DNA of 64,000 nucleotides from Corallococcus macrosporus DSM 14697 (GTDB lineage: Bacteria > Myxococcota > Myxococcia > Myxococcales > Myxococcaceae). The position numbers and the translations under genes were made by a program. Every line of letters starts with the position of its first letter. Position 1 is the first letter of the stretch. This document shows positions 24,808-29,322 of this stretch, one piece after another. Where the stretch lies: NCBI RefSeq assembly GCF_002305895.1, contig NZ_CP022203.1, positions 1,776,501 through 1,840,500 of the forward strand, written 5' to 3'. The notes below the pieces were generated by a model. It was not told the origin of the DNA and did no database searches. It saw nothing but the letters and a program-made list of their open reading frames with translations.

Positions 24808-25455
24808 ATGATGATGAGCGAGCGGGAGGCCCTCGCAGCGGAGCTGCGACGGGTGGAGGTGGCGTTGCAGCGGGCGTACGCGGCGATGGACGGGAGTGCC
24901 GAATCACGGACGCGGCTGGCCACGGTGAAGCAGGAGTACCGGACGGCGGAGGCCGCGGCGCTGCATGCGCTGGGTGCCGAGGATGCGTTGAGGCTGGTGG
25001 AGGCGAATGACTCGGCGTGCGCTCACCCCCGGAGCAGGAAGCACCGGGGGAGTGGGTTGCTCGCGGCGCGCGAGAGTCGCCTCTCCGCAGTGGCGAGCAC
25101 CACGCATGAGGGGCGCGCCGCCTGGGCGTGCGTGAAACATCAGGCGAAACAGGACGCTTCGGCAGGCGGACGGGCCCGGGCCGCATGGGCATGCCCCGAA
25201 AGGCATGCCATGCCGGCCCGCTTCACCCTCGCGTCGCCAAGCCCTCTCGCAGCATTTCATCAACGAGGGACGCGGCCTTTTCCTCGGCCGTTGTGCCCTG
25301 CACGCGCAGCGCGACGGATTCGAATCGCTGGGTATTGGTTACAACCCAGTCGATGTACTCGGGAATGGAGAGGCGCTCCACGCCGAAGGCGATGTCCTGC
25401 ATTCCCTTCACGATTTGGACAGCCGTGCCCTCGAAGACACGTCCGTCGCGCATGA
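24808..25455 (+). CDS. Doubtful coiled-coil protein
   Basis: The first 75 codons (MMMSEREALAAELRRVEVAL..., RLATVKQEYRTAEAAALHAL) read like a real helical protein. From about 25040 the frame turns into Arg/Pro/Cys-rich shadow composition and overlaps the better supported minus-strand gene at 25223. Either the true gene is short and truncated by a lesion near 25040-25100, or the frame is spurious. No family recognised. Confidence 0.3.
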   Translation: MMMSEREALAAELRRVEVALQRAYAAMDGSAESRTRLATVKQEYRTAEAAALHALGAEDALRLVEANDSACAHPRSRKHRGSGLLAARESRLSAVASTTHEGRAAWACVKHQAKQDASAGGRARAAWACPERHAMPARFTLASPSPLAAFHQRGTRPFPRPLCPARAARRIRIAGYWLQPSRCTREWRGAPRRRRCPAFPSRFGQPCPRRHVRRA

Positions 25456-25465
25456 TGATCATCAT
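25223..25465 (-). CDS. Small hypothetical protein in the cyclotransferase operon
   Basis: 80 residues (MMIIMRDGRVFEGTAVQIVK ... VDEMLREGLATRG). The N-terminal beta hairpin (RDGRVFEGTAVQIVKGMQDI) and a C-terminal helix are visible; family not recognised. Its ATG overlaps the TGA of the upstream cyclotransferase gene (ATGA), so translational coupling is likely. It is the last gene of that operon. Confidence 0.7.
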   Translation of the reverse strand: MMIIMRDGRVFEGTAVQIVKGMQDIAFGVERLSIPEYIDWVVTNTQRFESVALRVQGTTAEEKAASLVDEMLREGLATRG

Positions 25466-25848
25466 GACTTCTTCTCCTTCAGGTGTGTGCGCCAGCAGCC
25501 GGACTCGATGATGGGGCGGCCAGCCAACCGCCCCTTGGGAAACAGGTATGCCTCGGCGCGGCCGGCACCGTCGAGGGCAATGGACGTGCGCTGGTAGAAG
25601 CGAGGGTGGCCCTCGAGCCTGTCGAGCGCTGCCAGCATGAGCGCGTCGACTTCGTACACCTCTCCCTCGATAGCGTGCTTGCCCCTGGAGGCGAGGGCAG
25701 GGAAGGGGCCGTAGTCGTAGAGACTAAAGCGGGGCTGCGTCCGCGCTGGGCCAATGAGGCGTGCGCCGCGCAGGAGGCGGTGGTTGGGCTCGCCGGACAG
25801 CAGCGTTCCGTAGACGAAGATACGCGTCGAGATTGAGGCGCGCTTCAT
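25462..25848 (-). CDS. Gamma-glutamylcyclotransferase-like protein B
   Basis: 128 residues. FVYGTLLSGEPNHRLLRGAR (residues 11-30) is the substrate-loop motif of the GGCT/AIG2 fold; FSLYDYGPFPALAS follows, then the catalytic Glu region IEGEVYEVDALMLAALDRLE and HPRFYQRTSIAL. Enzymes of this fold release 5-oxoproline from gamma-glutamyl amines or cleave gamma-glutamyl isopeptides. Its start overlaps the stop of the upstream paralogue in the sequence ATGA. Two GGCT genes in tandem near an amidoligase suggest reversal or editing of a gamma-glutamyl linkage (inference). Confidence 0.85.
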   Translation of the reverse strand: MKRASISTRIFVYGTLLSGEPNHRLLRGARLIGPARTQPRFSLYDYGPFPALASRGKHAIEGEVYEVDALMLAALDRLEGHPRFYQRTSIALDGAGRAEAYLFPKGRLAGRPIIESGCWRTHLKEKKS

Positions 25849-26285
25849 TCCGCACCTCCCAGGGCGCCCGCGAGCGCGGCGCGGTTGAAGCCCAGGCGCC
25901 CGTAGGCGTGCCAGAGGACGCGGAAGTAGCGGCCAGCGGGTGGCCAGGCCTCGAAGCTTGCTTCGGGCTGCAGGTATACCAGCGCTCGGCGGCGGAGGCC
26001 GGTCTTGTCCGTCACCAGTCGGGCGGCGCGCCGGTACGCGAAGGGGTGCCCCTCGAAGGCGTCGAGGGCGTGCAGGTCCTCGGGGGTGAGGCGGTACAGC
26101 AACCCCTCGACGTGGGCGCCGCGCACGCGCTGGAGGCTGGCGACGGCGCCGCCCCAGCGGCGGCTGTAGCCGCCAAACACCAGGGTGTGGCCGGGAAGGG
26201 TGGCCCGGGCTTCGACGGTGGCGCCGGGGCAGCGTGTGCGCATTTGGGCCCTGTCGAGGTTGGAGCCGTAGGCGAAGTAGAGCAT
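25845..26285 (-). CDS. Gamma-glutamylcyclotransferase-like protein A
   Basis: 146 residues starting MLYFAYGSNLDRAQMRTRCP, the YGSN signature of GGCT proteins. The conserved catalytic Glu segment appears as VEGLLYRLTPEDLHALDAFE, then HPFAYRRAARLV. The C-terminal 40 residues (WHAYGRLGFNRAALAGALGG) extend beyond the shorter AIG2-type paralogue next to it. It lies 130 bases downstream of the small gene at 26419 and is coupled to the next gene by a 4-base overlap. Confidence 0.87.
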   Translation of the reverse strand: MLYFAYGSNLDRAQMRTRCPGATVEARATLPGHTLVFGGYSRRWGGAVASLQRVRGAHVEGLLYRLTPEDLHALDAFEGHPFAYRRAARLVTDKTGLRRRALVYLQPEASFEAWPPAGRYFRVLWHAYGRLGFNRAALAGALGGAE

Positions 26286-26418
26286 GGGGACTCTCCGGTG
26301 GAGGGCGGGCGCGCGGCCCGCCGTTGTCGTTGCGCGCCAGGGGCACCCGTGGGCCCTGGTGTGGTGCCTCGTTGTTGGAGGCGTATTGGGAAGGGCGCGT
26401 CGTCTAGCGCGGCGCGGC

Positions 26419-28258: not shown

Positions 28259-28321
28259 CCGTAGGAAGGTGCGGGCCCGGTGCCTGGGCTACTTCCTCGG
28301 GCCCCGGCGCCAGAGCAGGCA

Positions 28322-28343
28322 GGCGCCAGGGCTTCGTGGCGCC
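28322..28343 (-). terminator. Hairpin downstream of the amidoligase gene
   Basis: Stem GGCGCCA/TGGCGCC with 8-base loop, 13 bases after the stop codon at 28357. No T-tract. Confidence 0.45.
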
Positions 28344-28356
28344 CGCGAAGGCCTCG

Positions 28357-29322
28357 TCACGCGGCGGCGCGGGCTTCGGTGGGCGTGTTACCCGGAGCGG
28401 CCCCTGCGTCGCCCTGCGAGCCCTCGCTGCCGGGCGAGCCGTCTTCACCTCCGCCCGGGCCGCGCCGGTCGCGGCGCTGCCCCTTCCATGCGGCGCTGCC
28501 CTCCAGTTTCTTGAGGAGGTGCAGGCGCGCCGTCTTGAACTCCTCGCCAATCAGGCCCAGGTGGAGGAGGAACACCCGGAAGTCGTACTTGGCGGTGGCG
28601 GGGTTGAAGTCGCGGCGCTTGCTGGAGGCGGCCTTCGAGGCCAAGGCCCGGGCGGCGAGGGCCAGCACCAGTTGGATGTAGGCCTTCACCTCGCCCGCGT
28701 GCACCGTGCCGTTGAAGTAGCGGAATTCGATGGTGCCTCGGAAGAAGAGGCTGTTGAGGTTGAGGCCGTGGTAGCGGCTCTGGTCGTAGCGGTCGGGCAT
28801 GTTGATGCGGCGCCCGTACCAAGCCTCATTCACGTCCTGGAGGGTGCGCGGGCGCCGTGCCTCCAGTCGCTGGAGGAATGCCGCGTCGATGGGCTTGCAG
28901 AAGCGGTTCAGCCGCGCGGCGCTCACTCCGAGGGCCGTCTCCAGGAGGCGCTCCTGCTTGTGAATCATCTTCACGAGGTTGGTAACGCCCTTTGCATCGA
29001 AGCGGCTGCCGTCGACGTGGATGTGGATGCCGGTGGAGGCGTCGGCGCGAGCGCCGGCCTCGCGCGCGGCCCGCACCACCTGCTGTAAGGCGTCGAGGTC
29101 CTGGTAGGTGAGGATGGGGGAAACGATTTCGCCGCTGTACTCGCCCCCGCTTAGCGAGCCATCCGGCACCACCTTCCAGGTGCGGCCCTGGGCGTCCGTC
29201 ACCTGCCAGCCCCGGTAGTCGCTGGAAACCTGCCCGCCCACCGCGCTCTGAATCGCGTGGGCCAGCTTCTGGCGGCTGGCGCCAACCGTCTCAATCTCAA
29301 TTCCAAACCGGAGCGTCTTCAT
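28357..29322 (-). CDS. Amidoligase (COOH-NH2 ligase, amidoligase_2 type)
   Basis: 321 residues starting [20 protein letters not shown], the FGIEIE strand with paired Glu that binds Mg-ATP in this glutamine-synthetase-like family. Other family blocks: [20 protein letters not shown] (Asp and Glu), [20 protein letters not shown] (HIHV metal site), [20 protein letters not shown] with the late GTIEFR motif. These enzymes join a carboxylate to an amine, forming amide or peptide tags. The last 50 residues are Gly/Pro-rich. The start at 29322 lies 40 bases downstream of promoter-like copy C. Genes of this family are known to occur with GGCT-fold proteins, which lie downstream here beyond an ISKra4 insertion. 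Confidence 0.88.

Follow-up and report, generated by a model that had tools for sequence, protein, structure and literature searches.

A prophage amidoligase with two gamma-glutamylcyclotransferases and a constant small companion, p80, in Corallococcus macrosporus

The idea of phage amidoligase cassettes reportedly originates with Iyer et al. (2009). An earlier note on the DNA described here, made from the sequence alone, had stated that such amidoligases occur with enzymes of the gamma-glutamylcyclotransferase (GGCT) type, and published phage sets of amidoligase, GGCT and amidotransferase genes, putative peptidoglycan-modification cassettes, agree with it (PMC5498523, in excerpt). As described there, the cassettes comprise amidoligases, ATP-grasp, GGCT and amidotransferase proteins, and a modification of peptidoglycan side chains directed against superinfection was proposed. 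In prophages, an amidoligase has been found with a GGCT (PHROGs 2443 and 2520; excerpt of PMC11318856), and a block of superinfection by phage amidoligases has been suggested (excerpts of PMC11318856 and PMC10580990). Of the removing enzymes, GGCT has gamma-glutamyl amino acids as its substrates and GGACT has gamma-glutamylamines (excerpt of PMC7022552). No test of the proposed cell-wall role of phage amidoligase/GGCT sets is reported in the portion of the amidoligase literature collected here.

The window, a stretch of 64,000 nucleotides (positions 1776501-1840500), comes from the single-contig, 8.97-Mb genome of Corallococcus macrosporus DSM 14697. All genes that the earlier note had listed for 25223-29322 were found (an amidoligase, an ISKra4 transposase, a 57-aa protein, two GGCT-fold proteins and an 80-aa protein). 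In minus-strand order they are the amidoligase, the plus-strand transposase, p57, GGCT1, GGCT2 and p80. GGCT1 and GGCT2, and likewise GGCT2 and p80, overlap by 4 nt, which suggests one co-translated unit. The features of the region are as follows.

20843..20873, minus strand: outlying promoter-like repeat ahead of a 79-aa ORF
25223..25465, minus strand: p80, 80-aa companion protein of a family outside PHROGs and PDB
25462..25848, minus strand: GGCT2, GGACT/YtfP-type cyclotransferase
25845..26285, minus strand: GGCT1, gamma-glutamyl cyclotransferase fold, with human GGCT as nearest solved relative
26419..26592, minus strand: p57, 57-aa Arg-rich protein (PHROG 5428), an optional member
26640..26670, minus strand: promoter-like repeat ahead of p57-GGCT1-GGCT2-p80
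26795..28240, plus strand: ISKra4-family transposase (NCBIfam NF033572), separating the amidoligase and p57 units
28357..29322, minus strand: amidoligase (PF12224, PHROG 2443), 321 aa, predicted GS/glutamate-cysteine-ligase fold, ATG at 29322
29373..29403, minus strand: promoter-like repeat ahead of the amidoligase
29728..32873, minus strand: small accessory prophage ORFs of 139, 124, 216 (DUF2924), 90 (DUF6900) and 145 aa, conserved upstream of the set
30118..30148, minus strand: promoter-like repeat ahead of the 139-aa ORF
31965..31995, minus strand: promoter-like repeat ahead of the DUF6900 gene
32331..32361, minus strand: promoter-like repeat ahead of a small ORF
32882..63726, minus strand: prophage tail, baseplate, hub, tape-measure, sheath, neck and head-protease genes, with inserts

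The window encodes phage structural genes from 32 to 64 kb, and portal, terminase-piece and serine-recombinase genes were found beyond it; the region is therefore a prophage, of which the amidoligase/GGCT set forms one end. This prophage is damaged, so that the window copy of the set may be a relic. A second, related prophage at 2.23 Mb in the same genome carries the same set without the insertion sequence, and DNA alignments of its fetched part with the window prophage are 71-93% identical. The genome holds two PF12224 matches, one per prophage set, and five PF06094 matches, four of them in these sets. All four conserved proteins have been maintained by selection, as judged from dN/dS between the two copies (0.23 for the amidoligase, 0.21 for GGCT1, 0.21 for GGCT2 and 0.18 for p80). 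The closest named relatives of the gene set, among the loci listed, are in Myxococcus. As to the parent phage, positions 40900-64000 gave no megablast match, and the sheath-like protein no tblastn match, in the phage collection; Mx alpha is a plausible identity for the prophage, judging by multiplicity and by units of about 80 kb (PMC6070905, in excerpt). No RNA family scored above threshold in positions 20000-45000 of the window.

The transposase belongs to the ISKra4 family (NF033572, 240.8 bits; cut-off 205). Compared with the second copy, which has 50 bp at this place, the insert spans about 26683-28301 (roughly 1.6 kb, with approximate ends); no clear terminal pair is present among the 25 of 28 inverted repeats listed. 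The second copy also has one promoter-like repeat ahead of the amidoligase and another ahead of the p57 unit, which indicates that ISKra4 landed between two already separate units. The element thus lies between the ligase and the other genes, as the earlier note had it, but did not cut one transcription unit in two. That note was right about the gene set and overlooked its prophage membership, the second copy and the constancy of p80.

The repeat has the form CTTG-N16-GAGCGTGTATG. The pattern CTTG-N(15-17)-GAGCRTGTATG matches the 8.97-Mb genome 11 times and its reversed control 0 times; all 11 matches are on one strand, six in the window and five in the second prophage. The repeat is an element of the prophage, and its position marks it as a putative promoter. 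Each part of the set does keep its own copy, as had been claimed, and the repeat is commoner than chance. Among 27 Myxococcus genomes, 10 have at least three matches, and all 10 contain the amidoligase. Four amidoligase-free genomes have a single match each, of a different sequence that these four share. The other 13 are without the repeat, and two of these (G113 and G118) hold a diverged amidoligase and a fragment.

The amidoligase matches PF12224 with an E-value of 1.9e-60 (205.2 bits, curated cut-off 22), and the first ligand motif, GIEIE, and an HIH motif are kept across a 13-sequence alignment. Its AF2 model (pLDDT 85.2, with the last 41 residues at low confidence) is matched by Foldseek to GS, YbdK and Dop. 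Structural comparison gave a VIA Z of 14.6 and an rmsd of 4.0 over 235 aligned residues with the YbdK relative 1tt4_A, and a VIA Z of 11.6 with Dop. The predicted model has the fold of the GS superfamily, by its likeness to YbdK, glutamate-cysteine ligase, GS and Dop. The common fold does not give the substrate: GS-fold enzymes form other amides too, and Dop takes amides off.

Both cyclotransferases score above the PF06094 cut-off and contain the YG[ST] motif and the catalytic Glu. GGCT1 is similar to human GGCT (E 7e-8), and GGCT2 to YtfP (E 1.7e-10) and human GGACT (E 3e-10); subtypes were assigned by the best profile score. The catalytic-Glu motif is present in 32 of 36 GGCT1 rows, the misses being two contig-cut sequences, the distant L106 and L077, and in 33 of 34 GGCT2 rows. 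Judging from these relatives, the pair would cover two acceptor classes. Both types are fused in a single ORF in one viral contig (L111).

Within the order, 24 of 145 genomes contain the amidoligase and 10 of the 145 contain p57. Of 37 myxobacterial regions fetched, L107 has no amidoligase, L104 and L105 hold fragments, and L106 carries a distant form accompanied by two GGCTs. Adding the window and the second copy to the remaining 33 gives 35 sets. GGCT1 is present in all 35, GGCT2 and p80 in 33 each and p57 in 13. The two sets without GGCT2 and p80 both run off their contigs.

For a wider sample, profile scans gave 183 viral and 402 genome loci, of which the best 80 of each kind were analysed (160 in all, one of the viral loci being the earlier locus L118). 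The genome loci are in what we take to be Myxococcota, Desulfobacterota, Armatimonadota, Lentisphaerota, Planctomycetota, Elusimicrobiota and Bacillota, among others, and the module is also found in records deposited as phages. At least 3 kb lies downstream in 121 of the 160 loci, in which same-strand neighbours were scored from -3 to +4.5 kb at the domain level. Among these 121 loci of the two best-80 samples, a GGCT was found near the amidoligase in 110, at least two GGCTs in 38, the GGCT1 type in 67, a class II amidotransferase in 43, p80 in 73 and p57 in 4; no GGCT was detected in 11 and no p80 in 48. The amidoligase and GGCT are a conserved set, in agreement with the earlier note. Of 46 representatives (80% identity), 38 have a GGCT, 26 the GGCT1 type, 12 the amidotransferase and 20 p80.

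The GGCT1 type and the class II amidotransferase never share a locus in this best-80 plus best-80 sample (0 of 121 loci, 0 of 46 representatives). The chance of zero overlap among the 46 would be 3e-6 if they were independent, which the loci are not, and on a tree of labelled rows the pattern is explained by only two switches. The nearest solved relatives of the amidotransferase are GlmS glutaminase domains. An EgtC-like assignment was rejected: its only NCBIfam match was below threshold (16.8 bits against 218.65), and the GlmS domains are nearer. Both the GGCTs and the amidotransferase might serve a turnover unrelated to the ligase.

It is p80, not p57, that is the constant small companion of the amidoligase. 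After convergence, a profile seeded with myxobacterial p80 matched 96 ORFs, which are spread over 95 of the 160 loci of the best-80 plus best-80 sample; all 96 adjoin the amidoligase on the same strand, and 13,112 shuffled ORFs gave 0 matches. In 195 Myxococcota genomes, 33 of 37 matches adjoin an amidoligase (positions compared by eye). Of the other four, one is weak, one sits at a contig edge, one is an incomplete copy some 65 kb away, and one lies on a separate contig in a genome with truncated sets. The form found with the amidotransferase is linked to p80 through intermediates over which the profile converged, the direct hhalign comparisons being weak (probabilities of 3% and 58%).

The AF2 model of p80 (pLDDT 95.6) has the order beta-beta-alpha-alpha-alpha-beta. 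A Tyr is the only invariant residue among 27 members, with no invariant Lys, Glu, Asp or Cys. None of the 27 matches PHROGs, and one weakly matches ribosomal L12 in Pfam, which was taken as chance. The window member matches nothing in NCBIfam or PADLOC, and p80 gave no match in the phage collection. No relative was found in the PDB by sequence or fold (best Foldseek E 1.4; best VIA Z 3.2, rmsd 3.7 over 59 residues). The model does resemble two unnamed viral predicted proteins (query TM 0.77 and 0.79).

We give an even chance to the reading that the set is an accessory prophage module for making and unmaking gamma-glutamyl amide bonds, with p80 as a ligase subunit. The direct evidence consists of gene content, conservation, predicted folds and co-occurrence, from which we infer the chemistry, the role of p80, the promoter function and the target. 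By analogy with its relatives, the chemistry is probably gamma-glutamyl ligation and removal. The GS-fold amidoligase would use ATP to join a carboxylate, most likely a glutamate side chain or a glutamate-containing peptide, to an amine. GGCT1 would take gamma-glutamyl groups off alpha-amino acids or peptides, and GGCT2, as a GGACT type, off amines such as a lysine side chain, both releasing 5-oxoproline. p80 would act as an accessory subunit of the ligase, for specificity or regulation, and transcription of both units would depend on the repeated promoter-like element that the prophage itself carries. The purpose would most likely be a change of envelope peptides, in an infected cell or a lysogen, that might for instance impede superinfection; the envelope as target is taken from published proposals (seen in excerpt). 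In a bolder form, which we regard as unlikely, phages and prophages of many phyla would encode a reversible gamma-glutamylation system with p80 as its dedicated specificity subunit. Its ligase-p80 core would work with interchangeable erasers, of GGCT type or class II amidotransferases, and gamma-glutamyl groups would be put on and taken off a target of the host or of the phage.

The set could instead serve protein tagging, the ligase placing glutamate or peptides on a small protein, p57 or p80, from which the GGCTs would remove them. The fold matches of the amidoligase include Dop and PafA, which work on the tag protein Pup, and p80 is the constant small partner of the ligase. The earlier note had proposed p57 as the modified substrate; that proposal fails on distribution, as p57 is missing from 22 of the 35 myxobacterial sets and from 117 of the 121 wider loci in the best-80 plus best-80 sample. 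Its description as Cys-rich was overstated, with only two cysteines. Relatives of p57 occur in Ackermannviridae phages, and the one neighbourhood inspected, that of Cba120, annotates no amidoligase. For p80, a fixed modified site is improbable, since no Lys, Glu, Asp or Cys is invariant and the C-terminus differs among the 33 myxobacterial members. Those members carry the argument on the C-terminus, the 27-member alignment being partly end-trimmed; they lack the conserved C-terminal residue of a small Pup-type tag, and p80 was rejected as a C-terminal tag on its variable ends and missing reactive residue. Tagging is quite unlikely in our estimate.

A small-molecule pathway, in which the ligase would yield a gamma-glutamyl amine or amide metabolite, later completed or recycled by the GGCTs or the amidotransferase (compare gamma-glutamyl-protected intermediates), appears possible if somewhat unlikely. 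Enzymes of the GGCT and GGACT types work on small gamma-glutamyl compounds (excerpt of PMC7022552), and some loci have the class II amidotransferase related to GlmS glutaminase domains in place of GGCT1; yet the maps of the myxobacterial sets showed no recognisable transporter or additional biosynthetic enzyme, the neighbours being phage genes. A cassette for lysogenic conversion or defence against other phages, independent of any wall change, would suit the placement of the set among small accessory genes beside tail genes and the suggestion that phage amidoligases stop superinfection (excerpts of PMC11318856 and PMC10580990). This is very unlikely in our view: PADLOC models match none of the five set proteins, and the module also occurs in deposited phages. 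The preferred reading of a gamma-glutamyl ligation and removal module names a recurrent core of ligase, p80 and removing enzymes, and moves the experimental focus from the optional p57 to p80. p80 accompanies the amidoligase in many phages and prophages of the best-80 plus best-80 sample and is an unstudied family with a confident predicted fold, undescribed in the libraries searched; the Myxococcus prophage module is small and cloneable.

The combination of amidoligase and GGCT in a phage, by which the published cassettes are recognised, is found in the window prophage. A glutamine amidotransferase gave no profile match in the window or in four further loci (L003, L004, L288 and L289), the five GATase_6 places in the genome are all away from the set, and the COOH-NH2 ligase listed for LUZ24-like phages (PF14395) has 0 matches genome-wide. 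Neither p80 nor a two-GGCT form was recognised in any description in the portion of the amidoligase literature collected.

At the level of single enzymes, the amidoligase fold is like those of YbdK (1r8g_A; VIA Z 14.2, rmsd 3.8, 233 aligned) and plant glutamate-cysteine ligase (2gwc_B; VIA Z 13.9, rmsd 4.0, 247 aligned), from which it differs in an identity of only 11-14% and in its phage accessory context. Human GGCT is nearest to GGCT1, and E. coli YtfP and human GGACT are nearest to GGCT2; in the prophage these two genes, of predicted activity, follow each other next to a ligase gene. The cassettes of the Pseudoalteromonas phage PSA-HP1, phiEco32, LUZ24 and related phages likewise combine a GGCT with an amidoligase among phage accessory genes, whereas the present set has no nearby class II amidotransferase and instead a second GGCT and p80 (excerpts of PMC5498523 and PMC11945000). 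Genes 96-98 of Arthrobacter phage Kovu encode a GGCT, an amidoligase and an amidotransferase; the first two are shared with the present set, but Kovu has the class II amidotransferase (GATase_6, E 8.7e-17) and no p80 match. A Clostridium clostridioforme LM41 prophage has an amidoligase of the same PHROG (2443) beside a PHROG 2520 GGCT, with one GGCT and no p80 reported in the excerpt of PMC11318856. A set of this kind is thus already known from other phages, and the second GGCT and p80 are what differs here.

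The Tail_P2_I-like gene of the window prophage is broken by an IS66-family element, which has inverted ends and is flanked by a target duplication of 8 bp; its counterpart in the second, related prophage of the same genome is whole. With this tail gene interrupted, the window copy is probably defective. Its terminase may also be broken: in a region of the same genome beyond the window (L288), a 187-aa ORF, for which Terminase_6C is the only match, is adjoined by an rve/Mu-type transposase stretch that is absent from the second prophage.

Features of the window prophage and its surroundings (window positions unless stated)
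20843-20873, minus strand: sixth promoter-like repeat, preceding a 79-aa ORF
34967-37057: 2.1-kb insert
35233-36957, plus strand: 574-aa ORF inside the insert
38295-40875: IS66-family element
38871-40802: IS66-family transposase
62374-63726, minus strand: ORF with methyltransferase and prohead-protease matches
L288:8416-13087 (genome 1848916-1853587): 187-aa ORF and adjoining transposase stretch

Approximately 190 bp of prophage DNA is duplicated and flanks the 2.1-kb insert, the 574-aa ORF of which has no match in Pfam or PADLOC. The sixth promoter-like repeat lies approximately 4.5 kb past the end of the amidoligase set, and the 79-aa ORF following it has no Pfam match. Separately, the single ORF at 62374-63726 matches two families, D12-class DNA methyltransferase and phage prohead protease (Peptidase_S78_2).

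Among the other fetched amidoligase loci, many of the Firmicutes-type phage loci carry a shorter, second amidoligase-like ORF approximately 1 kb before the main amidoligase (L007 4109-4873, and many gut-type loci). Relatives of p80, the 80-aa companion of the amidoligase, adjoin amidotransferases in three loci (L119:8969-9487, L127:8923-9396 and L125:8948-9208) and bear a C-terminal extension, which may be DUF5049-like; in L125 this extension is also encoded by a small ORF of its own.
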